Assembly: GCF_022539665.2 (NCBI RefSeq)
Contig: NC_081333.1
Span: forward strand, 5,640,971-5,704,970
Origin: Daphnia carinata
Taxonomy: Eukaryota > Arthropoda > Branchiopoda > Diplostraca > Daphniidae
Reading direction: 5' to 3'
Length of the DNA: 64,000 nucleotides
The position numbers and the translations under genes were made by a program. Shown piece after piece: positions 2,639 to 62,477 of the stretch. The number at the start of each line of letters is the position of its first letter. The first letter of the stretch is position 1. Under the pieces are notes generated by a model. That model was not told the origin of the DNA and searched no databases. It saw only the letters and a program-made list of their open reading frames with translations.

Positions 2639-3600
2639 CTACTGCTGGAAAAAAGCGAGACGACTGTTTCTGGATGTATACTTAAAGCCACTGAACTCAA
2701 CCCTCAAAACACGGAACAAAGAAAACAAATAAAAACAAGCCTCACTAACATGTAGACCCGTGCCCCCTACAGCCCTGCCCGCGCCGTAGGTGACAGTGGG
2801 ACCCAACGTGACAATAGATGTAATAGAAAACAAGGAGACAAATAACTTCAAAGGCAACTGACAACTTAACTTGTACAAAGAAGAAGCATATGAAGAATAT
2901 GTAGTTTCCGTTTTCCCCTTGTGAGGGACCGTCTTCAATGATTTGGGAGTTCCTTATACGCCTTCATCGGCCGACTCAGAATTTGATGGTGATTCTGCGT
3001 GTTACACAGCGTTAAACGTCGGGGGTGAGGGCAGTCGGTGATTATTGTTTGTCTTGCGACCGCAGTCGGTACAAAACTCCCAAAACAATTGCGCTGTTGA
3101 AAAAAGAGCTCCAAACGATCCTGATTGGTGAGGAGCATAAAGTCCTCACAGTCGGAAATTCTCTTCTTATATGAGGCTGCTCCCGTGACGTGCGACCTCA
3201 GAAAGCACGTGATCACGGGCGTATGAAGAGGAATTATGTACGTAGGGCGATCCGGGGTGGCGATCGACTTGGGTACTTGAGTGTCGGCCGCCGCCTCTCG
3301 AGCCTTACGTGGGAGAGACCCGATGTACTCACTCGTCAGGGTCTGTCAGATGTCTACCAGATCCTGAGAAATTTTGTCCAATTCTTCATCCAGATGGAGG
3401 ATGGCCCGCTGATAAGCGTACACGTTGTCGAAAACTTCTTTTGTGGCATGCACTATATTTCCAAATGTATCCTTCATATTGGCGACACACTCCTCTTCAC
3501 GTTCCCTACTCACTTTTACTTTTCCTTCACTGGTGCTGCTGATGGTGGCGGATATTCAGCCATTTTGCTCACGTTTCACGTAGAAGTTCACAAGGGACGT
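2639..3600 (-). pseudogene. Degraded minus-strand frame of unknown protein
   Basis: Minus-strand frames from about 3480 down to 2640 give protein-like text: TFGNIVHATKEVFDNVYAYQ near 3440, then DFMLLTNQDRLELFFQQRN near 3120. They are interrupted by stops near 3345 and 2935. A short ATG-led segment starts near 3560 (AEYPPPSAAP). I do not recognise the family. It lies beyond the 3' end of the BEL-B pol, so it may be flanking element sequence or an old host gene. Confidence 0.25.
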
Positions 3601-3609
3601 TTTCACTAG

Positions 3610-3929
3610 ACGAAGTCAGGTCAACTGAATATCGTCTGCTAAAAGGGTAGGCTAAACGGTGTCCAGTTTTTTCGTAATACTAAACAGCAGGTGATCTGAC
3701 TTTTGCCCTTTGCCCTATATTTAAACCTGAATATAGGTGGCGCTGAGCTTAGTGAATCCTCCACCAGGCTTAAGTTACGAATTTCTACGTTGGTTACATT
3801 TATATTTTACACTTCAGGATTGCACTTGCTGCATTTACAATTGATTTTGCGCTTTGAGCCTATTGATTTTATCTCTAGTACAAATAAGTATTTACGCGTT
3901 TCAAATACCAAATTAAAAGTTTACGTTAT
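3610..3929. other. Region beyond BEL-B pol stop
   Basis: This should hold the 3' untranslated region and possibly the 3' LTR of minus-oriented BEL-B. No second LTR copy exists in the window to define it. No other feature was seen. Confidence 0.35.
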
Positions 3930-4397
3930 TTAAGATTCCGTTTTTTCTTCCTTGGCATAAACTTCTTGATCTTTTGCCGCAACCATAATACATAATTTAG
4001 CCACCGGACGAATGCATGGTCATGGGTGGTTACTGAGCTTCACTTTCACTACGCGAACCACATTGTCAGTAGGGCTGGGAATAACTTCCAGCACTTAGCC
4101 CAACGGCAACTGTCCGCGCAATGTGTTTGGTTCGATTACAAGCACCAAGTCTTCCACGGTGACGTTAGGTCTTTCTTGCCATTTTCTTCTTTCTGTCAAA
4201 TGGGGAACGTATTTACGTAGTCATCTATTCCAGAAGTTTTGGAGGATGGCTTGGCTTTGCAGAAACTGTTTGGTAATACGTACATATTTCTCACGTCGGC
4301 CAGCTGGAGGGGCAAGTACGGCCGAGCTCTACCGTATAGGAAGTGATTTGGCGTTAACGGCCCAGCGTTAACAGTGCTGCCACTTCAACAACGACGG
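3930..4397 (-). pseudogene. BEL-B pol, C-terminal domain
   Basis: On the minus strand this reads as the C-terminal domain that closes BEL/Pao pol proteins (DUF5641 type). It has the order LVLVIEPNTLRGQLPLG, then VVRVVKVKL, then RPVAKLCIM, ending at a TAA at 3930. It is the 3' end of a pol whose other pieces lie at 7889-8779 and 18312-19310 on the same strand. A hAT transposon (4406-7880) and BEL-A (8780-18311) separate the pieces. The coding is decayed, with frame changes. Confidence 0.6.
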
Positions 4398-4405
4398 TTC
4401 GTAAT
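4398..4405 (+). repeat. Left target-site duplication of hAT element (TTCGTAAT)
   Basis: The 8-mer TTCGTAAT stands directly before the CAGGGTTGGG terminus and is repeated exactly at 7881-7888 directly after the other terminus. An 8-bp duplication is diagnostic of hAT-type insertion. Confidence 0.9.
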
Positions 4406-5126
4406 CAGGGTTGGGTTCGCTCGCCCAAAACGTGAGAGCTCTCGCGGCTCGGGGATTTTTTGAAAAGAGCGTACGCGCTCGCGCTCGCACTCCATCATAC
4501 TCAATTATTATTAAAGAACAAAAAAATTATTAGTAAATTATAGGAATACATTATAGGAAAAAATGAAAAATGTTTAATGAAAAATCTTTTGGTACCTTTG
4601 CCGATAGCATGAAATAGATGGTTGAGAGAGAGGAGTCTTGCTTCGACTTCGTTCGCTTTTATTTCAAACTCTTCTCTTAGTAAGAACTCAAAACTTTTGG
4701 CATCCTCGCTACAGATCCATTTCAATTTAAACATTGGGTGGACCATGGCAGCAATTTGCAATTCGCGATCCTCAAAATTGGGATTGAACCGCCAATTCAG
4801 TCCGGAAAGCAGAGCTGCAACCGACGGTTTACCATGTTTAATTGGAGAATCGTTTTCTAGTTCGCTTAGCTTGGATTAAAAATGTGAAGAGTTGTCAGCA
4901 AGAATCCAGCAGAGACATTTTTATCCCCTTTAAGGATATCAAGGGCTTCCGTGATAGGGTATTAATTTTCACGTATTCACGGATCAGCTCTTCTTCTGCA
5001 GGTCGCAGAGTAGGAACGTTCAACTCAGCGTAAATCTTTTGTAAGGCTGATTCTTTAAACGCAAAAGTCTTTAATCTTGTAAAGCATCTCCTTCTGAATA
5101 GTAACTTTACAGATTCAAAACGTTTA

Positions 5127-5153
5127 AAATAATAATAATAATAATAATAATAG
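5127..5153 (+). repeat. (AAT)n microsatellite
   Basis: An uninterrupted AAT/ATA run that marks one edge of unexplained DNA within the hAT transposase. A similar short run lies at 5938-5950. Confidence 0.8.
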
Positions 5154-5937
5154 GACTCGGAGGCGATTTTTCCCACACGACGATTATATTTGTCTAAGTA
5201 AGACACAACAGTACAGAAAAGAGTTGGAATAAGACATAAGTAGTCGGCAAAGGGAGAGAGAGAGAGAGAGAGACCGAAGTGTAATATGACACCTAGTGTA
5301 AGCTTACCGCAGGGACTCGTGTGAAGCACGGACGTGGATATCAGAGAAGGCGGCGGGTAACAGAAGCTCGTCGGCACGTGGTTAAAACAATACAGATGAA
5401 ATTGACACACTTCAGTACGCGACACCGATCAGATTGTTAGTATAGAGTTACCATTGGGAAGTCACTAGCCGAACTTGAACTCCGCCTGTGAGAGTCAGAT
5501 GCACACCGACAGCCGACTTCAACCTGACTGCTGAAGTAGAATACCCGTCGATAACTGAACTCTCTCAGGTCTTTAGTTCACCACGAAACCTCGCATATTG
5601 CACCACAATTAACTGATGCGCAATTACATGTTGCAACTAATGAAATTTGATACAGCATGTTGATGGTGCAATACTGATCAGCCCATAAGTCGCCAATCAC
5701 AGTTGTTGTTAAGCGGCGTAGTGCCGATGTAATATGATACGGTATGCGGCGTAATTTATATTGCGCCGTTATAATTGCGCAGTTATGCTATTGCGAAATA
5801 CATAGGTATACATATGAGTCAACAATAAAGGCACAAGGAAAGGCATATTGAATAAAAGTATTTATTGGCTTCGTTACACTCTGTTCATAGCGTCATAAAA
5901 AGAATTCCACCTAGGAAAGGTCCAATAGATATACAGT
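5154..5937. mobile_element. Possible insertion inside the hAT element
   Basis: About 780 bp with no transposase similarity separates two parts of the hAT coding region and is bracketed by AAT runs. It includes a (GA)n run at 5253-5273. Near the right side there is an AATAAA and the string TTCGTTACA, so a solo LTR is conceivable, but no target duplication can be separated from the microsatellite. It could instead be a large intron. Confidence 0.3.
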
Positions 5938-7880
5938 AATAATAATAAACATCATACCTCGTTTCATTTGGAAGAACAAATAGTCCTCCCAAAATTTCAT
6001 TGATCAAATCTGACGCTTTCGTACTTCTGGACTGCTTATTCCAGACACTTTTCAGCTTACTCTCAACACTTCCATACAGTTTTAGGAAAGCTCTGTTCTT
6101 GATCTTTTGTGAATCTTGAGTGGTTACGAGGTTGAGCGTATGGCAAGCGCATCTGTTTCGGCAGGCTATAAGTTTCCATCTCGAAAACGTCGTTCTCCAT
6201 TTTTTTATTAAAGGTAAGATGATCCCTAATTTCAACGAAGTCCAAATCTTCCTTAGCAATATCTTCGCCGCTGTTTAATTTTTCGGAAAGTTCGCTTTGG
6301 AACTACTCTTTCTCTGGATCACTGTCCTCTAAGAAAACTGATTCTTCGTCACTGTCTGACTTTTCCGTTTCTTTCAAATTTTCTAACGGAGTTACGTCAT
6401 CCTTTGTTGTTGAACTGCTGGCATGGAAAGCAGATGGTATTAAATCGTAAGCACAACGGGTGTTTCCGAACAACGAGAACGCTTTCAAGAAGTTGCTCCC
6501 GCTGTCCGTTACAGTTGCAGTTAGTTTCTTCGTGATTCCAAATTCATTGTGGATGTCGTCTAGCAACTTGGCTAATATATCGTAAGAATGTTTGCCTTTG
6601 ATACGGCGAATTGCCAGGCACCCTTTCTGTCGCTCTAAATCAGCTGTATTCCAATTTGCTGTTACAGCTAAAAAGGACTTACTCTGGTGCTCCAGCAGTC
6701 GGCAGTCGTACTGATAAATGAGGCGTCATCTAACTTTTTCTTCATTTTAAGATTTGCGATCGACAAACCTCAAATGCAATTTTTTACCGAAGAACTTCCT
6801 CGTACGGATTTTGATTTTGGGTGAGAAAAATTGCTGTTATTTCCGAAACCTTTTTTCTCAACCGTGTATAATGGAAGTACATCTTCAACCAAGTATTCCT
6901 AAAGCGTATTAGCCGAAATTGTCATAAGTTCTTTCGTTACGTGACATACCAATATAGCTTCATCCGGGAATTCTTGAGTAATCATTTTACGCCCTTCTTC
7001 ACCAAAAAGGATTTTAGTTTGCTTCAAACAGGACAGTTTTGCTGTCATTAAGCAAGGAAAGTTCACGATCAAACTCTGCCAATCGTAGAGGGTGTTTGCT
7101 ATTTAAATAAAAACAAATAAGAAAACAGTTCACGGAAAGAAAACGTCTTCAATACAAATTTCCTTTTCCCACCTTAACGTGTTGGCGAATGTTGTAGCAT
7201 GAGTTGCCTTTCCACCACAATTATCTTTAAAGCACTTATAGTCTAACATCAGTGCTGCACCTTTTCTTCCTTTACCAGTGTACTGAAACATTTGCCCTGG
7301 AAATTTGAGATCGGTCATGTAAGAATCTTCACCAGCCACAATGTTCCTTGGAGATCTAAATAATGTTAAGAAGATAAGTTTTTCAATAAAAAGTCTTTGA
7401 ATACAATGCTTACCTTCTGGGAGTAGAATTTGGAATAATTTGAAGATCACTGTCATCAGCTGCTGTTGAGGTCCTGGGACGCACAGAATCGTTTTCAAAC
7501 GAGTCTGCCTCTTTGTTAGGGGACTTCAATTTACTACCAATTTCACGATGAATACTGAGAAATATGTCTATAGGAACAAGGATTATAAAATTTATTTACG
7601 TATTTCTTCGCGGAGGCATTGTTTTATCCTAAGGAACAGATCATCTGTCTTAACACTTGTCCAGAGATGTGTCTGTTCCGCTATTGCCATAACAACCGAT
7701 TCGTAAAGTCACTAATAGTTGATCTGATGACTGACCGATGGCGCAAACGAGCGCAAAAAAGAGCGCACATTTTTGTGCTTGCGCTCGGGCTCGGACTCGC
7801 CAAAAAAATTGGAGCGCACTCGCGCCATACCGAGCGCGGTATTCGAGCGCACTCTTTTTTCGAGCGTTTGACTTACCCTG

Positions 7881-7888
7881 TTCGTAAT
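7881..7888 (+). repeat. Right target-site duplication of hAT element (TTCGTAAT)
   Basis: Exact partner of 4398-4405. Confidence 0.9.
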
Positions 7889-8779
7889 ACTAGGTCTGTG
7901 ACTAGGCAATTACCTATGCTGGTCTTCATTGCCCGTTTACAAGACTGTACAATTCTTTCCCAAGCACCACAAAAATGAGGTCCGTGGGGTGGGGAAAAGT
8001 GCTACTCTATTTGTTGGCAAGCCATACCGTCTGAAGTTCTTCGTGTTTAGTGACAAGTTCTTCTAAGGCTTGTCGAAGCTCCTGTTCGGCGGCAATAAAA
8101 TTCGTTCCATCGCCACTGTAAACAACCTTCGGCTTTCCTCACAGGCTGATAAAGCGAGAGAAACAGAGTAGACATTCCTCCATACAAAATCCGTTGGCTA
8201 TTTCCAGGTGGAAGGCTCGTGTCGTCAGGCACGTGAACAACTAACCCAGCATTTTTCATGTAGTCTACCTCTTTCACCAACTCGTACCGTTAAAGGCCCG
8301 AAGTAATCGATCCAAGTGTACGTGAACGCTGGTAGATGAGACGTTAAACGGTGTGCTGGTAGAGAAGCCATCAATGGAGGGCTTGGCGTCGACGACGTGC
8401 GCTTGCGAGGCCAGCAGTTGTTGCTTAAGCGAGAACGTAGGTCAGTCAGCAACCTCTCGGTCCTGACGTGAAGATGTCTAATGGGATAATCCCAAACTAT
8501 CCTTTGCGTTAAAAGTTGAGTCGCTGGCAGGAGTATGGGATGTATAGTTACGTAGTCTATTGGTGCGTGAAGTATACGTCCACCTACTCGCAACTGTCCG
8601 ACTTCATCCAAGAAGGGCCTGAAGATGCGAACCTTGGATCTGAGTCGAAATTCCAGATTCTTGCAAAGGGCGTAGAGTTCTTCAGTAAAGGCCATTTCCT
8701 GTGCACGTTTGATGCATATTACCAGGGACGTCACCATTGCTTCTGCCGTTAGCTCTCCGACCATGGGTTTCTCGCAACG
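7889..8779 (-). pseudogene. BEL-B pol, integrase region
   Basis: The minus strand reads, from 8779, an inter-domain segment (KPMVGELTAEAM), then the integrase zinc-binding region (VGGRILHAPIDYVTIHPILL; the BEL form of 'R.GGRL......PI.LP'), then IDYFGPLTVR at the start of the catalytic core (near 8300). Further on come core fragments resembling '...G.NF..A..EL..AL' (8040-8110) and 'HF.PP..PHF.G.WER.V' (7940-8010). Several frame changes are present. It joins upstream to 18312-19310 across BEL-A and downstream to 3930-4397 across the hAT element. Confidence 0.65.
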
Positions 8780-45011: not shown

Positions 45012-45152
45012 GAGAAAAAGGCCCAGACGAAAAAGGCCCAGACGAAAAAGGCCCGCGAAAAAGGCCCAGACGAAAAAGGCCCATACGAAAAAGGCCCACT
45101 TTTTTCCAAATTCAAAAGTGGGCCTTTTTCTCCATTGGACTGGGCCTTTTTC
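45012..45152 (+). repeat. FB1 left terminal motif cluster
   Basis: Iterated AAAAAGGCCCAGACG units, then a spacer containing a CACTTTT...AAAAGTG hairpin, then inverted CCTTTTTCTCC units. Mirrored at 51473-51612. Confidence 0.85.
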
Positions 45153-48100
45153 TCCGTTTAATTTCCATGTTCCCACAAACTTTATATTTATTTTCAAAAT
45201 ATATTTCCAACCTCCTATTCCGTGGAAAGTGGAATGTACATAGGTTGCTGAAACCGTTACCTTCTATAAGGTTTGCCGAGATCAAACAATGTTAGCGTAT
45301 GTACGTTAGTTAATCTTTGATTATTTATTCGTTAGCAATCTGATTTCGGATTATGTTAGTATTGATATATTGCTAATATCCCGTTAAATAAAGTTCATTT
45401 TTCACAATTTTTGTTTATTGAACTACTATCGGCTTTTTTTAATATAATACAAGAAATTAATGTTTTTCGCACTTAGCCTTGTTCTGTCTACCCTCTTTGA
45501 TTATTCCCCCAACCCCCAGTCCATCTCCCTTATAACTTCCCTTTGTCGATACTTATGCCATAAGTAAAGACCACTGATTCGTTGTGAATAAGGAAACTGA
45601 ATGAGTTCCGCGGGGCTTTTGTGGTTGCTGGGAACAAAAATATATGTTACCACGAAGACTAGTTTATTATTATTAACATTTGATAAATAATGTTTATAGG
45701 AATAATAGTACAAACTTGAACTATCGTCTGAGGCAAGGACCAAAACAAAGACTATTGTAATTCAATATTGATTCTAATACTATTTATTCTTTATACATTT
45801 TCCATTCTTTTAACAATTACAAAGAGCCCAATAAATATATTAAAATCATAACCTACTGCTATAAATGATTTTGTTCGTTCTTCGTGTCCTGTTTTCACCT
45901 TTTGTACATTTTCAAGCGGCTATTGATTACCTAATTACACATCACATACTACATTGAGATATAAGGAAGCTTTACACTTTACGTTAGCAAAGCTACTAAT
46001 AATGACAAACCAATTTTCTACTACGACGGATTTTTTTTTATGAGTCTCTTATTTGTGAAGACACTAAACCTTTTAAATTGAATCTAAGATTTTTTTTCTT
46101 CAAATTTTCCACGATCATGGAAGGCATATCAGTGTATTTTTCTAAAAAACTATCACGACATGGCTGCACATGAAAGAACACAAGTTTAGCTGATCCATCA
46201 GTCAGTATCAGTTTTTCATGCGATAAATTTGCCTTTTTTCTTTAGTTTATTCACTTTATGTTCTTTCTTTTCAGTTTTCTTTTTCTTAATGTTGGCTTTT
46301 CTCCTTTTCTGTTGTTATTCCCTTCTCTTTTCCTATTCTTCGATTCGTTCAGCGCAATTTTTGTTACTCTCTGATTTGATTTGATCTCGTTCATTAATTG
46401 GTTTGGCAAGCAATTCCACATAGTCTTTTACCTATTGCAATACAGAAAGGTTAAAAGTTTTCAAGATCTTACAAATATTTTTGTCAAATTGAAAGTTTAC
46501 CTGAAAACCTTCAGCTATTTGCAGAGCACCATTTCGTGCCTGTTTCTCTTCAATACTTCTTGCATTTTCAACTTCAGCTTGGCCTACCAAGATTTTCATT
46601 TTTGGTTTAAGTTTTATTTTCTTTCATTTTAATCGTTGCCACTTCTGGATCTAAAGTGGTCTTATTCAGAATGGGTGAGGAATTAGATAGTTCTCCAAAG
46701 TCAAATTTGCCGGAAACTAGGCAGCCTCCACTGTTAAAAATTGGTGTTGGCAGTGTACTTGCTAGTCTTGCTTCAGGAATTTCTGTTTTAACAAACTCTG
46801 AAAGACCAGAGGTTGATGACACAGATGCTGCCTTGGTGGCTCGAGCATGTTTGGCAATTCAGGACCTCTTCTTCTTACTTTTCCTTTTTAATTTCTTCTT
46901 CATTCCCTCTAACTTCCGTTAAAGTTTGATTTTCGTTGTCTTATCAGACAATTCCAGCTTTTTCTCTGAAAATCAATGGAATAAACTGGCCGGTCTTCCT
47001 TAAATGTAAATGTTAGACATACCTGTTAAGTGTGCGGTGTTCATTCGGTTTATGTTCTTTCTTTTCAGTTTTCTTTTTCTTAATGTTGGCTTTTCTCGTT
47101 TTCTGTTGTTATTCCTTTCTCTTTTCCTATTCTTCGATGCGTTCAGCCAACTTCTTTTACAATTTGATTTGATTTCATCTTGTTTCTTAATAGATTTAGC
47201 AAGCAATTCCACATTGTTTTTCACCTATTGCAATACAGAAAGGTTAAATTATTTAAAATCTTAAAAATATGTTTGTCAAATTGAAAGTTTACCTGAAAAC
47301 CTTCTGCTCTTTGCAGAGCACCTTTTCATGCCTGTTTCTCTTCAATACTTCTCGCATTCAACTTCAGTTTGGCCATCCAAGATTTTCACTTTGGCTTTGA
47401 GTTTTTTTTTTTATCGTTGCCACTTTTGAATCTAAAGTGGTCTTGTTCAGAATGGGTGAGGGATAAGATAGTTCTCCTAAATCAAATTAGCTGAATACTA
47501 GGCAGCCTTCACTGTTGAAAATTTGTGTTAGCAGTGTACTTGTTGGTCTTGGTTCAGGAATACCTGTTTTGACAAACTCTGTCGGATCAGAGGTTGATGA
47601 CACTGATGCTGCCTCGGTGGCTTGTGCAAGTTTAGCAATTCAGGACCACTTCTTGTTATTTTTCTTTTTTAATTTCTTCTTCTTCTATTCTTCTAATTTT
47701 TTTAAAGTTTGGTTTTCATTGTCCTATTAGACAAATCCTGCCTTTTCCCTGAAAATAGATGGAATAAGCTGGCCAGTCTTCCTTAAACGTAAAGATTAAC
47801 ACATACCTGTTAAGTGTGAGGTGTTAGCTGCTAGACATTCTACTTGTTCAACACCAACCTTATTGCTATTGAGATCGTCAACTGTAGATACACTTTCAGT
47901 TGGAATGTTGGTCAATAAGCTAGCAATGAAAAACTCTTCAGGAGAGAGTTGCTTTTTAAGAGCGACGATGTCAATGGACCCTCGCGTTTTATAAGGCTCT
48001 TGATTTTTAGGGTCCTCATTTCCTACAAATTTTGTTTAGACGTCACTTTCAAGTTCTTGTTTTCTCTTTTTCTATTTACAAAAACTGCCTCTCATATTAT

Positions 48101-48423
48101 AACCTTTAAACTTTATTATTATTTACCTTGATCTCTCAACATTATCACTGATCACTCCATAGATCAAACTATACGAAACAATAAGTCTATTGTTATTTTC
48201 TTTATGGAACGGCATTTAGAAGCCAAATCTAGCGTCAGGACGCCACAAACAATGGCGGACGGTGGAAAGCTGTTATTAAAACTTTTAGCTAAAGCTTTAT
48301 TAAATTCAACAAAATTTAGTTCCTTTGTTATTGTTCTATTATTATAATTCATTATTATTGTTGTACAAAGGAACTAAATTTTGTTGAATTTGTAATAAAA
48401 GAATTAAAAATTTTTAAAATTTT

Positions 48424-50400
48424 ATGTTAAAAACCGTCCGCCATTGTTTGTGGCGTCCTGACGCTAGATTTGACTTGAAAATGCCGTTCCCTGAAGAAAA
48501 TAACAATAGACTTGTTTCGTATAGTTTGATCTATGGAGTGATCAGTGATAATGTTGAGAAATTAAGGTATATAATAATAAAGTTTAAAGGTTATAATATG
48601 AGAGGCAGTTTTTGTAAATGGAAAAAGAGAAAACAAGAACTTGAAAGTGTCGTCTAAACAAAATTTATAGGAAATGAGGACCCAAAAAATCATGATTTCT
48701 AGCTTATTGACCAACATTGCAATTGAAAGTGTATCTACAGTTGACGATCTCAATAGCAATAAGGTTGGTGTTGAACAGGAAGAATGTCTAGCAGCTAACA
48801 CCTCACACTTAACAGGTATGTGTTAATCTTTACGTTTAAGGAAGACGGGCCAGCTTATTCCATCTATTTTCAGGGAAAAGGCTGGATTTGTCTGATAGAA
48901 CAATGAAAACCAAACTTAAAAGGAGTTAGAAAAATTGAAGAAGAAGAAATTAAAAAAGAAAAATAACAAGAAGTGGTCCTGAATTGCCCAACTTGCACAA
49001 GCCACCGAGGCAGCATCAGTGTCATCAACCTCTGATCCCACAGAGTTTGTCAAAACAGGTATTCCTGAACCAAGACCAACAAGTACACCGCTAACACCAA
49101 TTTTCAACAGCGAAGGCTGCCTAGTATTTAGCAAATTTGATTTAGGAGAACTATCTAATCCCTCACCCATTCTGAACAAGAACACTTTAGATTGAAAAGT
49201 AGCAACGATAAAAAAAAACTCAAAGCCAAAGTGAAAATCTTGGATGGCCAAGCTGAAGTTGGAATGTGAGAAGTATTGAAGAGAAACAGGCATGAAAAGG
49301 TGCTTTGCAAAGAGCTGAAGGTTTTCAGGTAACCTTTCAATTTGACATACATATTTGTAAGATCTTAAATAATTTTAACCTTTCTGTATTGCAATAGGTA
49401 AAAAACAATGTGGAATGGCTTGCTAAATCTATTATGAAACAAGATGAAATCAAATCAGATAGTAAAAAGAAGTTGGCTGAACGCATCGAAGAATAGGAAA
49501 AGAGAAAGGAATAACAACAGAAAACGAGAAAAGCCAACATTAAGAAAAAGAAAACTGAGAAGAAAGAACATAAACTGAATGAACGCCTCACACTTAACAG
49601 GTATGTGTTAACATTTACATTTAAGGAAGACCGGCCAGTTTATTCCATTGATTTTCAGAGGAAAAGCTGGAATTGTCTGATAAGACAACGAAAATCCAAT
49701 TTAAACGGAAGTTAGAGGGAATGAAGAAGAAATTAAAAAGAAAAAGTAAGAAGAAGAGGTCCTGAATTGCCAAACATGCTCGAGCCACCAAGGCAGTATC
49801 TGTGTCATCAACCTCTGGTCTTTCAGAGTTTGTTAAAACAGACATTCCTGAACCAAGACTAGCAAGTACACTGGCAACACCAATTTTTAACAGTGAAGGC
49901 TGCCTAGTTTCCAGCAAATTTGATTTTGGAGAATTATCTAATTCCTCACCCATTCTGAAAAAGACCACTTTATATCCAGAAGTGGCAACGATTAAAATGA
50001 AAGAAAAAAAAACTTAAACCAAAAATGAATATCTTGGTAGGCCAAGCTGAAGCTGAGAATGCAAGAAGCATTGAAGAGAAACAGGCATGAAATGGTGCTC
50101 TGCAAATAGCTGAAGGTTTTCAGGTAAACTTTCAATTTTCAAAAATATTTGTAAGATCTTCAAAACTTTTAACCTTTCTGTATTGCAATAGGTAAAAGAC
50201 TATGTGGAATTGCTTGCCAAATCAATTAATGAACGAGATCAAATCATAAAGTAACATAAATTGCGCTGAACGAATCGAAGAAAAGAAAAAGAGAAAGGAA
50301 TAAAAACAGAAAAAGAGAAAAGCCAACATTAAGAAAAATAAAACTGAAAAGAAAGAACATAAAGTGAATAAACTAAAGAAAAAAGGCAAATTTACCGTAT
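48424..50400 (+). pseudogene. FB1 internal multi-exon gene remnant, mirrored in the left arm
   Basis: Right-arm copy, reading outward from the palindrome centre. A short first exon has MPFPEENNNRLVSYSLIYGV. The next has SVSTVDDLNSNKVGVEQEEC and ends at an AG/GTATGT donor near 48818. A Lys-rich exon follows, then a Ser/Pro-rich stretch (SSTSDPTEFVKTGIPEPRPT), then coiled-coil text. The last exons occur twice in tandem (about 48800-49580 and 49590-50350). Stops make it non-functional. The left arm holds the inverted copy (about 46250-48270). Part of this gene also occurs in FB2 (53640-54170), so it is family-specific. The K-rich coiled coil after a short N-terminus recalls the segment following the THAP domain in P-type transposases, but no THAP or catalytic motif is visible. 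Confidence 0.45.
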
Positions 50401-51472
50401 GAAAGACTGATACTGACTCATGGATGAGCTAAACTCTTGTTCTTTCATGTGCAGCCATGTCGTGATAGTTTTATAGAAAAATACACTGGCATGCCTTCCA
50501 TGATCGTGGAAAATTTGAAGAAAAAATATCTTAGATTCATTTAAAAAGGTTTAGTGTCTTCACTAATAACAGACTCTCATTTAAAAAAAAAGTCCGTCAT
50601 GGTAGAAAATTGATTTGTCATTATTAGTAGCTTTGTTAACGTAAAGTGTAAAGCTTCCTCATATCTCAATGTATTATGTGATGTGTAATTAGGTAATCAA
50701 TAGCTGCTTGAAAATGTGCAAAAGGTGAAAACAGGACACGAAGAACGAACAGAATCATTTATAGCAGTAGGTTATGATTTTAATATATTTATTGGGCTCT
50801 TTGTAATTGTTAAAAGAATTGAAAATGTATAAGGAATAAATGGTATTAGAATCAATATTGAATTACATAATCTTTGTTTTGGTCCTTGCCTCAGACGATA
50901 ATTTAAGTTTGTAATATTATTCCTATAAACATTATTTATCAAATGTTAATGATAATAAACTAGTCTTCGTGGTAACATATATTTTTGTTCCCAGCAACCA
51001 CAAAAGCCCCGCGGAACTCATTCAGTTTCCGTATTCCCAACGAATCAGTGGTCTTTACCTATGGCATAAGTATCGACAAAAAGAAGCTATATGGGAGATG
51101 GACTGGGGGTTGGGGGAATAATGAAAGAGGGTGGACAGAACAAGGCTAAGTGCGAAAAACATTTATTTTTTGTATTATATTTAAAAAAGCGATGGTAGTT
51201 CAATAAACAAAAATTGTGAAAAATGAACTTTATTAAACGGGATATTAGCAATATATAAATACTAATATAATCCGAAATTAGATTGCAACCGAATAAATAA
51301 TCAAAGATTAATTAGCGTTTGTACGCTAACATTGTTTGATCTCTGCAAACCTTAAAGAAAATCACGGTTTCAGCAACCTTTGTACATTCCAAATTCCACG
51401 GAATAGGAGGTGGGAAATACAATTTTCGAAACAAACATAAAGTTTGTAAGAAAATGGAAATTGAGCGGAGAA

Positions 51473-51612
51473 AAAGGCCCAGTCCAATGGAGAAAAAGGC
51501 CCACTTTTGAATTTGGAAAAAAGTGGGCCTTTTTCGTATGGGCCTTTTTCGTCTGGGCCTTTTTCGCGGGCCTTTTTCGTCTGGGCCTTTTTCGTCTGGG
51601 CCTTTTTCTCCG
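51473..51612 (-). repeat. FB1 right terminal motif cluster
   Basis: Inverted partner of 45012-45152, with the same order of direct units, hairpin spacer and opposing units. Confidence 0.85.
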
Positions 51613-52895: not shown

Positions 52896-53060
52896 GATTG
52901 CCGGAGAAATAGGACCTGGAGAAATAGGACCCGGATATTTAGGACCTCAGAATAGGACCTGGAGAATTAGGACTCGGAGAAATAGGACTCAATTTCCAAA
53001 AATTTTTTGGAGGGTCTTATTTCTCCTAGCTAATGGTCCTATTTCTCCTTTTTAGGTATC
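52896..53060 (+). repeat. FB2 left terminal motif cluster
   Basis: Five to six GGAGAAATAGGACC-like units (some decayed), a short TTTCCAAAAATTTTTTGGA hairpin, then opposing CCTATTTCTCC units. Confidence 0.8.
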
Positions 53061-53640
53061 CTAAATGCACGCTGTCGGAGAAGAAGAACCGGTTGGCTTA
53101 TGTAGTCTTCCGCACTCCAAACAGCGTTATCAATTGCTCGTGTAATCATTCCATCATAACTTTTTTGTTTGAATTCATATTTGTATTTTTTTTGCACGAT
53201 TACACGCATTATCTATTGCTTTACATAGCTCATGTATAAAAGTTAGATTTATTGTTACACAGTGTTTGATTTTTTGCCCTTGACCTTTCGTTAGTGGCGT
53301 TTCCAGTCCTAGTATCGCCCTCCCCCCTGGCTGATATCCTTATTCCATGCGAATTCCCGGAGACGAGGGGCATGCTTTCCCCTAAGTACTCCTTAATGCA
53401 CTGATAAATAAGTAAAAAATTATATATATATAATTTAAGACAAGCACATTTTTTAATAAAAAAAAACTATTTGCCGCAAAACCATAAATAGAGACCTACG
53501 TGGCAAGAACGAAAATAATGAGTTCCGCTCGGCTTTTGGTGGTTGCTGGAAACGAATATGTTAATATTAATAATAAATCCAAGATTTTTTTTTTTAATTT
53601 TCAACGATCATGGAAGGCATGCCAGTGTATTGTTATACAA
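53061..53640. other. FB2 subterminal region
   Basis: Non-coding. 53515-53575 (ATGAGTTCCGC...GGTTGCTGG) matches FB1 near 45600 and 51000. A TA run at 53422-53442. TCGTGTAATCATTCC near 53138 and TGCACGATTACACGC near 53196 form a loose inverted pair. Confidence 0.5.
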
Positions 53641-53645
53641 AACTA

Positions 53646-54170
53646 TCATGGCACGGCTTGTAAATAATGGAACACGAGGCAACTCATCCATGTCAATATC
53701 GGCAGTTCATACGATAAGTTTGTTTTTTTCGCTAGTTTATTCAGTTTATGCTTTCCTTTCATTTTTCGTTTTCTTAATGTTGATTTATCCCTTTTCTGTT
53801 GTTGTTCCTTTCTCTTTTCTTGTTCTTCGATGCGTTCAACCAACTTCTTTCTCGTTTGTGATGTTGATTTTATTCTCTTTCTTAATTGGTTTATCAAGCT
53901 CGCAATCAATTCCACATTTTTTTTGAACCTATTGCTCTTAGTATTCTTTTATCTGTTATAATACAGAAAAGTAAAATTAGTTGAAGGTCTATTTTTTTTT
54001 TGTCGAAATCAAAGTTTACCTTAGCATCTGTTATTTTTCCTTTGTTTGTTTAGTTTCTTCTTCTCCAACTTATCTAACTTCCGTTTAAGTTGAGTTTTCA
54101 TTTTATCAGAGTCCTGCTTTTCCCCTGAAATTGGATGGCATATGCTGGCTTGCCTTCCTTAAACAAAAAG
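53646..54170 (-). pseudogene. FB2 copy of the fold-back family internal gene
   Basis: A minus-strand K/R/E-rich frame (RKKLVERIEEQEKRKEQQQK) flanked by sequence matching FB1 exons. It shares with FB1 the CTTAATGTTG...CTTTTCTGTTGTT stretch and the TCCTTAAA...GGCATATGCTGGCTTGCC region near 54140. A likely coiled-coil tail. It shows that FB2 belongs to the same family as FB1 inside as well as at the ends. Confidence 0.55.
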
Positions 54171-54189
54171 ATTATAGCACATACATACC

Positions 54190-54475
54190 CTACTAGCCTT
54201 TGTCCGTCCCAGGGGCATCCCATCTACGTCCTGGCTGGCCGATCGGGACGTCCCATTCTGACGGCAGATGTACGTCACCAGGATGTCCTAATGTCCGGTT
54301 TTAGGGACGTCCACTGGAGGACGTCCTACGGACGTAATTAATTGGAAGTCCTGGTAACGTCCTTATTTGGGAGTACTACGGACGTCCTTAGTTGGACGTC
54401 TGCAGGATGGCAAATCCGTACGTTCAGTGAACGTACGTATTGGAACATCCGCGGAATGTCCGGATCGCGGCAGCC
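54190..54475. repeat. ACGTCC/GGACGT-rich repeat cluster
   Basis: About a dozen copies of ACGTCC or its complement in 290 bp, many as GGACGTCC palindromes at irregular spacing of about 15-30 bp. A non-coding satellite-like or MITE-like piece. Confidence 0.6.
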
Positions 54476-54599
54476 AAAGGACGCAAGAAAATTTGTTTAA
54501 ATTAAAATAAAACCATAAATTTTTGGTAATTGATTTACATTTATTTTTACAAAATACAAACAATTAAACAAAAATTTAGCAGGTAACATCAAAAGCCTA

Positions 54600-55895
54600 A
54601 AATGTCCCGCTTCTTCTTCACTGTCGGTGTAAATGAACTTGCCAGCTCTATCACTAGTTTTCGAACCGGCTTTTTTGGAACCAAGCTGTGTAATGGCTAC
54701 ATCGAAATCGCTGTCGACCGAGGTAATTGATGTTTGCGAAGGTGTTCTCACCTGGACGGAAAGAATAAAAAATGGGAAATTGTGATCGGCGTAGAAACTC
54801 GAACAGGAAGATGATTTGAAATACCGGTCTCTTCCATCTACTGTTTGTTTCAGTATCAGAGGCAGCCGATTCGGCACTGATGGAAGATAGCGAGCGGAAT
54901 CAACGACTTTCGCCCCCATTCATGTACGTGCGTTTGTATGGGTTGTCTTCCTTTAAATGATTGGGACGACCAACGATTCCATTTTTATCCTGCAACCAAA
55001 TAAATTCAACGCACACAGATTTAGAACTGTTTTCTTGTCATCGATAATTACGGCAAAGCCAAACCTTTTTCATTGCGGGGATGTTCGACTGTACGCCTGC
55101 TATGAGTTGAATGACTTGTTCAAAGCCTTCTTTTTTGATCGTTTCCCCACGTAAATATACAAGGTCATAGACATTGGAGCCATGATTGGCGTCAGTTCTG
55201 CTGGGGTGATAGTTTTTTGGAGATCAGACAGAGACAAAATCGCTGTTGCTTGTGGAAGGTTTGTTCTCGCAATCGAAAATACGATCGTGATAATTTCTCT
55301 CTTCGGCTGACCATGTAACACAAATTTCGAACCTACAGCGAAGAACAGTTTTTACTGACAACTCTGCATTTAACGAGATAAAAATAATAAAGTTAATGAG
55401 AAGTATGTTCATACCCTCTCTAGGTCTTGTCGTAGCTGTACAAACAATTTCATACGTTCCATATCTTGCTGTTGTTGCTGACTTAATCTTTTCGTTTCAG
55501 TGGTTTTGGGCGGTAGCAATGGTCTGTCTCGGTTGGACTGGAAATTTTAAAAAAGAAAATTGATTGCTTGTAGTAGAGACACATGAATTTGGGAGCACAC
55601 ACCTTTCGTTTACGAACCCAAAAGTTGAAAATTTGATCAACGACAACGACATCGAGATCAAGATCTAGCGTCCGCGCCGTTTCATTAATGCTGGCATGCT
55701 TATAAAAGTCCGATTCGATGAGTTGTAGCCTTTTCACACACAAGTAACTCTAAATAATTAAACGCAAAACGTAAAAATGTTTATGTATCCTATACTTTTG
55801 GGCACGGATTAAGTGCCTTTCTTCGACGGTCATTTCTTTTTTCAGCTTTCTAACGGATTGGGTGTTCTCCTCCCCCTCGCCTTCAACATGAGATC
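54600..55895 (-). pseudogene. Captured fragment of a Jade/Rhinoceros-type PHD gene (introns retained)
   Basis: Exons in order on the minus strand. About 55895-55800 has SVRKLKKEMTVEERHLIRAQ. 55740-55600 has RLQLIESDFYKHASINETAR, then FNFWVRKRK. 55540-55388 has RPLLPPKTTETKRLSQQQQ, then LFVQLRQDLERV. 55330-55150 has NLCYMVSRREKLSRS, then RLREQTFHKQ, the hallmark block of Jade/Rno proteins C-terminal to the PHD fingers. 54995-54885 has NPYKRTYMNGGES, and 54750-54600 a Ser/Asp-rich segment with FIYTDSEEE. Introns are short with GT-AG ends. The PHD fingers and the real 5' and 3' ends are absent. One direct duplication-like 'VVVVD' and stops suggest decay. The match relies on recalled family motifs. 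Confidence 0.7.
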
Positions 55896-55899
55896 CCGT

Positions 55900-57661
55900 G
55901 ATCCATATCCAATATTGATATCATGGAAATCAATAATACGGAATAGTGTTACGTGCTCCTGGACATTTTCTGGGGCACTGCTCAGCGATGGTACCGATTT
56001 CGGTTTGCCACCTAAGACGATAATAAATTAATGTAGTTACTAGTTGAAAATGCATCTAAGTGAAATGATAATTAAAGAATGGCTCTCAGATACTATCTAG
56101 CAGGAAGATTATGAAAGTTTTTCAACATTCCAAAAAGTTTTAATCATCGAGTACTTAAAATTTTAGATAAATACGAAAGAAATTCACCTGTGGCAATAAG
56201 GCACTTGTCGTAGGTGATGGTATGGCCGTCATCTAACTCAGCTTTGCGACCAACAATGTCCAGTTTAACTACAAGATGTCCTCACACAACTGAAACGCCA
56301 CCATTTTCTTTGGCAACTAATTCCACGGGATTGCAGTAGAATTCATCCTGTTCGAAGAACAAACTGGATACGAAAATAGGTCACATGCGTTAAAATAACA
56401 CAATATAAAATTATAACTTTAGACAATCACCTTCACTCTTTTCTGTTCCACTGCTTAAACTTTAGTTTGTTTGACACTTCGGGATCGTCACTGAACCACA
56501 GTTCTTTCGATAGTGGTGGCTTCATGTAAGGCAAGTGGTTTTCTTCACCAATGACTAAGACCTAGAAAAAATGATTCAATTAAAAATGGCGAGATAAAAT
56601 GAATTACTTTTCTACCTTTGCTTTAGGGTCACGGGATTTTATGGCACGGAAGGCGGCAAATGAAGAAGTACCGGCTCAGGTTAGTCAAACATAATTGAAA
56701 ACATTACTTACCGAATAAATAAGGGACTGTAAAAAAAAAGCTTGTATTTCATTTTAAATGTTTAACAATCAATATTTTTCTGTAAATATTAACTAAGCAA
56801 TAAACCAAGTAAAATTTAAGTTCTCGTAAACGAAACAAAATGCATCACCTTATTTTTCTTCTTTAACAGTTGTTTATTGGGATAGGTGACTCTTCTTTCG
56901 AGTTGTAGTTGTACGCGATGAAATTTCTAACAACGTATGGGATTTTATAAACACCTACAAAAGAAAAAAATTAATGGAAGAACGAAAAGCCTTTAAACCA
57001 TAAAAATAAAATTAATTTTGATTCAATTACACATATGTGTCCATTCATAGCTGGGTGTGTAGTTGGTTTTCTCCTCAACAACAGAATTGGATGTCTTGCT
57101 TCTGTAAATTGAAATCCGTTAAAGTGCAGTACTTGCATCTTGAGATTAATGTCTTGACGTAACTAACAGCTGTAATGCTGTTATTTCATCTGGACGATAA
57201 GAAAAATGATTACATAAATTTCACGAACAAAAAATCTGTGAACATCTAGATTACCAGAAGGATGATAGTTATAAGGCAGCTACCAAGTTGGTTCCCAAAT
57301 GGTTCATGGTAAATTATACTCTAGTTTCATGATTCTCCTTGAAAGTAACCACCCAAGAAACATTTCAGATTAGTAATCTGTGTCAAATTTCCAACTGCAA
57401 TTAATAAAATTATGTCTACACTTTAAATACCTTTCCTTCCAAGTAAATTTTTTTCTTCTGTGGTGCTAATGCCAACATGAATTTGAAATGTACCAAAACT
57501 GCCAAACCTAGGAAATAGAAAATTTTTAATTTTACTGAAACTAGCCACTTACCTGTCAAACAAACACCGCTTACAACAAGCAACTTCAACGATTCATAGA
57601 ATTGTAGGATGTTGACACTTCGAGCTTGCAACAGTCGTCTGCTTGTAGTAACCGTTGCCAT
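55900..57661 (-). pseudogene. AIFM1: Captured 5' part of AIFM1 (apoptosis-inducing factor), introns retained
   Basis: Starts with ATG at 57661 and a basic, mitochondrial-presequence-like exon (TTSRRLLQARSVNILQF) ending at a GTAAGT donor at 57552. A linker exon (SNSVVEEKTNYTPSYEWTH) lies near 57070. The FAD-binding region follows: TSSFAAFRAIKSRDPKAK (56650), [20 protein letters not shown] and [10 protein letters not shown] (56460-56560), FFEQDEFYCNP, ENGGVSVV, VVKLDIVGRKAELDDGHTIT and DKCLIATG (56190-56360), then GKPKSVPSLSSA and VTLFRIIDFHD (55930-56010). A TGA sits after GGVSVV near 56288, and the GGG of the Rossmann loop exon is damaged. The C-terminal two thirds of AIFM1 is absent; Jade-like sequence follows directly. 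Loss of the rest makes it non-functional as AIF. Confidence 0.8.
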
Positions 57662-58138
57662 ATATATCGTAAAAAACAATATTTTGCGCAAGGGCAAACA
57701 GTGTTTTATTATGAAATTAACGTTTCTTAAATTATTTTTATATAATAATTTTCTTAGTTATCTGTGTATTAAGAGGTACTTATGCGCCCTCCCAAGAATC
57801 CTCATTGAGGCACGAAGAAAAAAAAAGTGAATAGTGACACTATAAAAGGGCGGGTGATGGTTGACCTGAAAACACCAGTAAGAAAATGTAAAATGCGAAA
57901 ATCCAAATACTTTGTAAACAAAATTACTTTTCTATTAAATGAGCTCTAAAAAGCAATAGAAAAAGCATATAATCCTGCAAAAATATTATGAATGTAAATT
58001 TTTTTTTTTAAAGTTATAATGCAGTGAAAAGGCGTCATATTGATAACGCTGTTTGAAGTGCAAAAACCAATATAAGCCGTTCGTTTTTTTTTAAACATAT
58101 CGGACAAATGATAACCATTACACATTTAATTTTTTTAT
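57662..58138. other. FB2 right subterminal region
   Basis: AT-rich, no gene. TATAAAAGGGCGGG at 57842 on the plus strand looks like a TATA box but faces away from the captured genes. Confidence 0.4.
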
Positions 58139-58316
58139 GATGGAGAAATAGGACCTCAAGGCTGGAGAAATAGGACCCTCAATGTGGAGAAATAGTACCC
58201 TTCAAAAAATGTTTGAAGATTGGTTCCTATTCCTCCAGGTCCTATTTCTCCAGGTCCTATTTGTAGGTCCTAAATCTCCGGGTCGTATTTCTCCAGGTCC
58301 TATTTCTCCGGCTACC
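58139..58316 (-). repeat. FB2 right terminal motif cluster
   Basis: Three GGAGAAATAGGACC-like units, a spacer, then about six opposing GGTCCTATTTCTCC-like units ending in GGCTACC. Mirror organisation of 52896-53060. Confidence 0.8.
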
Positions 58317-58320
58317 CTAT

Positions 58321-58460
58321 ATTCACATTTAATACACGTATATTTGATACTGTTTGAATTTAGATCATGAAACTGATTCTATAACACTTTATTCACATTG
58401 AATACACGTATATTTGATGCTGTTTAAATGTAGATCATGAAACTGATTTTATAACACTAC
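58321..58460 (+). repeat. Two-copy 70-bp tandem duplication
   Basis: ATTCACATTTAATACACG at 58321 and ATTCACATTGAATACACG at 58391 head near-identical 70-bp units containing GATCATGAAACTGATT. Confidence 0.85.
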
Positions 58461-61520: not shown

Positions 61521-62477
61521 GATTGGCGGTGAAATAGGACTGAAACGAAATAGGACTGGAGAAATAGGACTGAAAATTTCCAGCCCTATTTCTACCGGAG
61601 AAATAGGACTGGGAGAAATAGGACTTTATTAAACTTTTAGGACAGTCCTATTTCTCCATGGTATCAGTCCTATTTCTCCTCGGCATCAGTCCTATTTCTC
61701 CTTAGAAATAGTCCTATTTCATTTATCTTGTTCCAAGGGGAACGATGAGCCTCTAATCCGAAGAGCGCCGGCTTATATCCATTTCCCTTTTTAAAAAACC
61801 GATGGCGTTTACTCATTAGATAAATAGTTCACAAATTTTTTATCTCTTATCCTATTTTAATTTTAATTGCGGGGGAACATAAATTATTTTGAATCTAATA
61901 GAGTTCATTTAATAAAATACTATTAGAGCAAAATCAGATTATGTAAGAGCTGTATATAACGATAGATGTATGAAATAGTAAAACATTAGTTCAATTGGAA
62001 AAGTTGGTTATGACCACATAATGTGCAATATAATATTTCTGTAGTTTGTCTAATAGTATTTTGTTAAATGAACTCTATTAAATACAATATAGTTCATGTT
62101 CTCCTGCAATTTAAATTAAAATAGGATAAGAAAAAAAAGTTTTGTGAACCATTTATCTAATGAATAAACGCCATCGGTTTTTTAAAAAGGGAAATGGATA
62201 TAAGCCGGCGCTCTTTCGCAATACATTGCCTACCGGATTAGAGGCTCATCGTTCCCCTTGGAACAACGTAAATGAAATAGGACTATTTCTAAGGAGAAAT
62301 AGGACTGATGCTGAGGAGAAATAGGACTGATGTATTGGAGAAATAGGACTGTCCTAAAAGTTTTTAAAAGTCAGTCCTATTTCTCCCAGTCCTATTTCTC
62401 CGGTAGAAATAGGACTGGAAATTTTCAGTCCTATTTCTCCAGTCCTATTTCGTTTCAGTCCTATTTCACCGGCTACC
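61521..62477. mobile_element. FB3: 957-bp palindromic fold-back transposon
   Basis: Left end GATTGGCGGTGAAATAGGAC, right end (complemented) GGTAGCCGGTGAAATAGGAC, with an exact 8-bp TSD. The arms, 61521 to about 61927 and about 62047 to 62477, are near-perfect inverted copies around a loop of about 120 bp. The outer 210 bp of each arm is built from GGAGAAATAGGACTG units in both directions, so each arm can itself form several hairpins. The inner arm includes AAAAAACCGATGGCGTTTA. There is no coding capacity. Confidence 0.92.

Follow-up and report, generated by a model that had tools for sequence, protein, structure and literature searches.

The window analysed here, a stretch of 64,000 nucleotides (G000:C3:5640971-5704970), holds what is very probably a non-autonomous Mutator-like DNA transposon (an animal Pack-MULE), belonging to a family that took host gene fragments successively. 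Between the long inverted ends of this element lie fragments of two host genes, one of Jade/Rhinoceros type and the other AIFM1, arranged head-to-tail on the minus strand, and the fused unit was amplified after the fusion. The original prediction had pictured a mobile element that, like a plant Pack-MULE, had captured two unrelated host genes and fused them, and that picture holds: the element carries internal host gene fragments, their parents are found elsewhere in the genome surveyed (108 Mb, 106 contigs), and introns are kept. In plants, Mutator-like elements are known to generate new gene structures by capturing genes; here, one small genome combines pieces of four host genes with a nested junction from which an order of capture can be read and with relatives that bear a transposase, and gene acquisition by such elements becomes testable in an animal from readable intermediates.

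Boundaries and mobility of the element

The ends of the element were fixed at 52896 and 58316 (Table 1) through the comparison of 20 fetched copies, which show the same ends wherever an end exists; the genome contains 52 + 49 occurrences of a 16-base terminal piece and 0 of the reversed control. The terminal inverted repeats are long and degenerate (52900-53475 against the inverse of 57693-58312, 66.5% over ~600 bp) and share 15-bp end units at 52903-52988 and 58225-58309. A jump from 53532 to 53606, which corresponds to 73 missing bp, is seen in the alignment of copies L015-L032.

Exact target duplications of 9 bp, each of them different, flank 13 of the 20 fetched copies; in L020 the 9-bp duplication is displaced by one base, and exact 9-bp duplications are also found at the transposase-bearing element on contig C59 and at L052 (both described below). 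No target duplication is present at the window copy (L013), where 6 of the 9 positions differ, or at L016, L017, L022, L024 and L026, several of which have a missing end, or at L048. Because the duplications at 13 copies are all different, the unit 52896-58316 transposes as a whole. Its class had originally been given as fold-back. Long, internally repetitive inverted ends are indeed a feature of Drosophila FB/Foldback and are present here, as judged by shape alone, so that the description stands for the form of the ends; the duplication length of 9 bp, inside the 8-11 bp range of MULEs, together with the MULE transposase of the C59 relative, makes the element Mutator-like instead.

The family is a high-copy one. 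With 40 of 87 candidates scored, the 86 matches of the Jade part include a minimum of 24 non-host places, counting the window, where its length is at least 0.8 kb, and 21 of those places hold the commonest form, in which 867 bp (56112-56978) are lost; one such copy, on C56, is cut short. These counts bear upon the suggestion that an ordinary segmental duplication of a host region containing AIFM1 and Jade had been flanked by chance by two fold-back insertions. The window copy, with no target duplication and with left and right flanks that differ in kind, would fit that account, but the parents reside on different contigs (C9 and C8), and the fused unit recurs at all of these non-host places with the same ends and, at 13 of the 20 fetched copies, with a different exact duplication. 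Such a history is extremely improbable, and for the family as a whole it is refuted by the target duplications; independent insertion of the two ends, which the original prediction had named as a possible refutation, fails in the same way, the unit being present at many loci with 9-bp duplications of its own.

Table 1. Coordinates of features within and beside the element, in window positions
Feature	Position	Strand	Remarks
Left terminal inverted repeat	52896..53475	+	Start GATTGCCGGAGAAATAGGAC; includes 15-bp minisatellite units; left end common to fetched copies
73-bp segment	53533..53605	.	In window copy and L014; absent from 18 other fetched copies
Left subterminal element sequence	53606..54187	+	54028-54187 86% to transposase-bearing C59 element
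Repeat	54361..54578	.	Between AKT and AIFM1 in L048 and L045; at other loci too
Captured Jade/Rhinoceros fragment, exons and introns	54604..55904	-	91.6% BLAST identity to host L044 851-2188
Filler between fragments	55905..55938	.	24 bp to AIFM1 BLAST edge; by eye, as much as 34 bp
Captured AIFM1 fragment, FAD/NAD-binding region, exons and introns	55929..56677	-	90.1% to host L043 3140-3883
AIFM1 block edge	56678..56739	.	Common to L003, L045 and L048; 56739/56740 would mark the missing transposase-bearing interior
Element-borne exons, inward from right end, MATVTTSRR...	56740..57661	-	85.7% to C59 element through right end
Right terminal inverted repeat	57693..58316	-	Ends ...CTCCGGCTACC
70-bp satellite, two units	58317..58459	.	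Right flank of window element only

Five of the 20 fetched copies (L014, L015, L016, L025 and L026) have the 70-bp satellite on both sides, and L017, like the window copy, has it on one; satellite DNA may be a preferred target of the family, or a place where its copies persist. Other repeats were recorded in passing. Window positions 61527-62471 form a 945-bp near-palindrome (84% self-inverse) that has the same 15-bp end units and is bordered by ATTGATGC on both flanks; it is probably a miniature relative of the element family. A further pair of inverted minisatellite arrays at 45014-51608, with units GAAAAAGGCCCAGAC, is probably a second fold-back-like element. TTAGG is the arthropod type of telomere repeat, and (TTAGG)6 gives 4378 + 781 exact overlapping matches in this genome (reversed control, 0); one (TTAGG)n array lies at G000:C4:4795789-4796435, far from the contig ends.

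Captured genes, their parents and the order of capture

The two fragments had been expected on one strand and within tens of bases of one another, and they are separated by 24-34 bp on the minus strand. Their introns align to both host loci; because the alignments continue through the introns, the claim of capture at the level of DNA is likewise upheld. The AIFM1 fragment of the window finds AIFM1 in the PDB (1.3e-35). Neither fragment is the only copy of its gene, whereas a sole copy was to have spoken against capture: the host AIFM1 locus (L043, contig C9) holds the AIF C-terminal domain, and the host Jade locus (L044, contig C8) holds Jade-type PHD fingers, nearest in the PDB to those of Jade-1 and Jade-3 (3.4e-49), and both of these domains are missing from the cargo.

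Two further host genes have contributed to the family. In a second subfamily, represented by L052 and L053, a piece of ABAT (4-aminobutyrate aminotransferase; PDB 3.3e-47) adjoins AIFM1 in the place of Jade, and 41 bp of Jade serve as filler at another junction; this 41-bp match occurs at a minimum of 12 places among the matches listed, and for ABAT itself all 24 of 24 candidates were scored and gave 26 matches, which cover 20 non-host places. Also in L052, positions 2771-3017 match G000:C9:2103032-2103281 (250 bp, 89%). In L048 and L045 AIFM1 is accompanied by an AKT piece (PDB RAC-beta, 1e-42), and AKT is present at no fewer than 16 non-host places, one short edge excluded (40 of 66 candidates scored; two elements read). 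The host copy of ABAT is L054 on contig C6 and that of AKT is L055 on contig C3, where a PH-like stretch and a kinase were recognised by eye; the parents of the four cargo pieces are thus spread over four contigs (C8, C9, C6 and C3). All four of the AKT- or ABAT-bearing elements examined also hold AIFM1.

The order in which the pieces arrived is recorded in part by a copy on contig C3 (L003), in which sequences from the host loci succeed one another as AIFM1 3883-3140, Jade 2188-549 and AIFM1 2359-2246. Since AIFM1 sequence encloses Jade on both sides, Jade was captured after AIFM1. Divergence from the host in non-coding positions is.126 for AKT,.119 for AIFM1,.1005 for ABAT and.0665 for Jade (.0468 for the Jade of L003, over more sites). 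Jade is less diverged than AIFM1 (24/361 vs 105/880, Fisher p 0.006), which together with the nesting argues for serial capture, and less diverged than AKT (p 0.025); among AKT, AIFM1 and ABAT no significant difference was found (p 0.38-0.81). The family would have acquired AIFM1, with or after AKT, before Jade, and ABAT in a separate lineage. That AKT came first of all is a guess, prompted by listings that show an AKT match and no AIFM1 match; candidates with AKT only are C7:400657-403819 and C7:667813-670965. L048 has its two end types the other way round with respect to the cargo, and an exchange of arms must be assumed for that reason.

Were the capture of AIFM1 a matter of a recurrent hot spot and not of descent, each subfamily might have picked up an AIFM1 piece of its own. 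The AIFM1 tree, with a single host sequence and with low deeper supports (0.18-0.88), is unable to discriminate single from multiple capture, and its inability to show a cargo clade leaves room for such independent events; against them, different elements share the BLAST edges of their AIFM1 pieces (host positions 1886 and 3883), and L003 and L048 have one and the same repeat next to AIFM1. On these grounds repeated capture is very unlikely, and descent from a shared AIFM1-bearing ancestor is the reading retained here. As to the mechanism, template switching is suggested by the short fillers at the junctions and by the parents that remain in place: the fragments would have entered as copies while the element was being repaired or replicated.

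The changes shared by both cargo copies, relative to the host, were counted. For Jade they are nearly all silent and amount to 4/619 at codon positions 1+2 and to 37/671 at third and non-coding positions; at positions 1+2, under a clock of local capture, at least 12.1 would be expected for the 4 observed. The corresponding figures (observed vs expected) are 5 vs 11.7 for ABAT, 11 vs 17.9 for AIFM1 (p 0.06 alone) and, in the opposite direction, 17 vs 12.3 for AKT; over the four genes they are 37 vs 54.0 (p 0.009; combined p 0.003). Such a deficit might indicate that the source of the Jade, AIFM1 and ABAT pieces was not the alleles of this lineage but those of a diverged donor, either a different species or a population long separated, and that the loaded element arrived through introgression or horizontal transfer, a reading that we regard as unlikely; slower mutation in the cargo than in the hosts would also explain it, and high polymorphism could suffice.

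Transposase-bearing relatives and the fate of the cargo

No transposase was seen in the window copy, and a search of the genome with PF10551 gave 19 matches, 0 of them inside the listed paired ends. A relative at C59:11420-19373 has exon-like frames with a MULE match and a FLYWCH match that is weak (0.0056; 17.3 bits, short of the cut-off of 23.6). The pairing of a FLYWCH zinc finger with a MULE domain is a mark of the Phantom clade, for which the C59 relative is a candidate. As a single piece the MULE match is below the cut-off (0.011); on three manually joined exon translations it reaches 3.3e-6 (PF10551, 27.9 bits vs a cut-off of 27.6). Judged by this match, barely above the cut-off and on joined exons only, the C59 relative is one that encodes a MULE-type transposase. 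Near relatives of its transposase region are found at C5:7692777 (99%) and C3:5631595 (96%). Retrotransposon pol-like frames, recognised by eye, adjoin the C59 element in its flanks (L046/L047). The ABAT-bearing L052 and L053 were considered as autonomous elements and rejected: by eye, L053 consists largely of a nested LINE-like element, and a nested repetitive stretch lies in L052.

The C59 element also clarifies the exons at the right end of the window copy. The ATG exon at 57661 had been taken for the AIFM1 start codon, and this part of the original prediction was not borne out: 56740-57661 has no match in the host AIFM1 locus as fetched (6.5 kb, which may stop short of the first host exon), and the same exons stand beside the right end of the C59 element, which is free of AIFM1 and matches neither host locus. 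Their identification as the start of AIFM1 was rejected accordingly. So was a third captured host gene, since no homologue was found in Pfam, the PDB (best 0.45, equivalent to chance) or a protein collection, and the exons travel with the AIFM1-free C59 element; they are element sequence. In that element they are convergent to the transposase exons on the other strand, an arrangement of convergent genes that is reminiscent of maize MuDR.

The C3 copy that includes L003 is 31.7 kb long, with end pieces at 5884843 and 5916545, and presents in one orientation Jade and AIFM1 (L003), then L049, then L050. L049 corresponds to C59-based positions 3629-5694 at 92.4%, and L050 to 5691-8585, through the right end, at 91.0%; that they meet at 5694 and 5691 is consistent with one insertion of ~20 kb into one element. 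The comparison spans both sides of 5888501-5907399 (~19 kb unread), which are joined by collinearity, without an established target duplication, and by that collinearity the C3 copy is apparently a transposase-bearing element with cargo aboard. On that view the window type would have arisen by deletion, with the join at 56739/56740, from a copy with both cargo and transposase: a C3-type copy would have lost its transposase interior, and the type so formed, after losing another 867 bp, would have reached ~20 loci by means of a transposase acting in trans.

The cargo itself appears to have decayed. The Jade exons of the window copy show a 1-bp deletion, a 13-bp deletion, a 6-bp insertion and one in-frame stop, and its AIFM1 fragment shows two such stops. 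Of 12 cargo copies compared across the four genes, 11 contain a stop or a frame-breaking indel, the exception being the AIFM1 of L003, unbroken over the 130 codons compared. Between the window and L003, Jade differs at 11, 6 and 8 sites of codon positions 1, 2 and 3 (~310 sites each) and at 10/361 non-coding sites, and this equal change at all codon positions indicates the absence of coding constraint on the Jade cargo. AIFM1 departs from the pattern: between L045 and L048 third positions differ more often (28/275) than non-coding ones (35/949), which neutral drift does not explain. The longest stop-free frame among those listed over the stretch of the original prediction has 140 codons and extends past the Jade edge. 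A coding fusion gene was rejected on the stops and indels, the drift of Jade and the shortness of that frame; judged by the broken copies and the Jade drift, the cargo is a non-coding passenger.

It has also to be considered that the cargo is selected, whether as a chimeric gene or as a source of regulatory RNA, through sense chimeras that begin in the right-end exons or through antisense or small RNAs against the parents. AIFM1, Jade, ABAT and AKT all face one way, which in the window is also the direction of the exons that read inward, and passages of Tan et al. (PMC8277862) report that some animal Pack-TIRs are transcribed as chimeras. However, a common facing of four pieces would arise by chance about 1 time in 8, and the breakage and even drift just described count against selection, which makes such a role quite unlikely; any effect on host AIFM1 or Jade, by way of chimeric RNA or small RNA, is putative.

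Comparison with known systems

Animal Pack-MULEs are already known; the capture of host gene pieces by such elements is familiar from plants, with few reports in animals. In the open-access literature searched, no nested multi-gene cargo at high copy, and no cargo together with transposase, was found for an animal, and a search of the same literature with Daphnia returned no paper. The comparisons that follow draw on portions of the papers cited. A survey of animal reference genomes recovered no Pack-MULE, according to the portion of PMC8277862 that deals with it, and in the relevant portion of PMC8074501 Pack-MULEs are merely cited. The Phantom group of MULEs has Crustacea among its hosts, with duplications of 8-10 bp and one or two reading frames (PMC6446971).

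The nearest precedents are found in insects. Muta1 of Aedes aegypti is an active Phantom-type MULE, ~20% of whose derivatives contain host gene fragments, as in Muta1NA3 with its 276-bp fragment of a serine/threonine kinase (PMC5225508). The family described here resembles it as an animal MULE with Pack-MULE-like derivatives that bear host gene fragments; unlike the single short fragment of Muta1NA3, its pieces are longer and of exon-intron structure, with two genes fused and nested, and one and the same fusion is amplified at ~20 loci. Ssk-FB4, from Drosophila melanogaster populations and termed Pack-MULEs by Tan et al. in 2021, likewise has fold-back-like long inverted ends and became multicopy by transposition, with target duplications of 9-10 bp (PMC8277862); it involves one gene at three loci and has, in the portion concerned, no transposase assigned, whereas here pieces of four genes and transposase-bearing relatives are present.

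Other animal cases share single features. Tm1 of root-knot nematodes, a Mutator/Foldback family whose transposase, with FLYWCH and MULE domains, belongs to the Phantom subclass, is similar in its composite fold-back-like ends, 9-bp target duplications and non-autonomous derivatives; it differs in its low copy number and in that what it may have acquired from its host is a histone hairpin motif (PMC3169594). Turmoil-1 of C. elegans, too, unites two host coding fragments in one animal transposon, but they lie within its inverted repeats (PMC2572040). At the Nv1 locus of Nematostella, an insertion of ~15 kb with MULEs at either end, present at several loci, has been called suggestive of a pack-MULE; the passage in PMC9842752 gives neither the origin of the cargo nor the order of its capture.

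Plant Pack-MULEs agree with the present family in their Mutator-like ends, in host fragments drawn from other chromosomes, in being multicopy in part and in their distinct target duplications (PMC8277862). What sets the present family apart from them is its animal host and the presence of one copy in which cargo and transposase apparently occur together.
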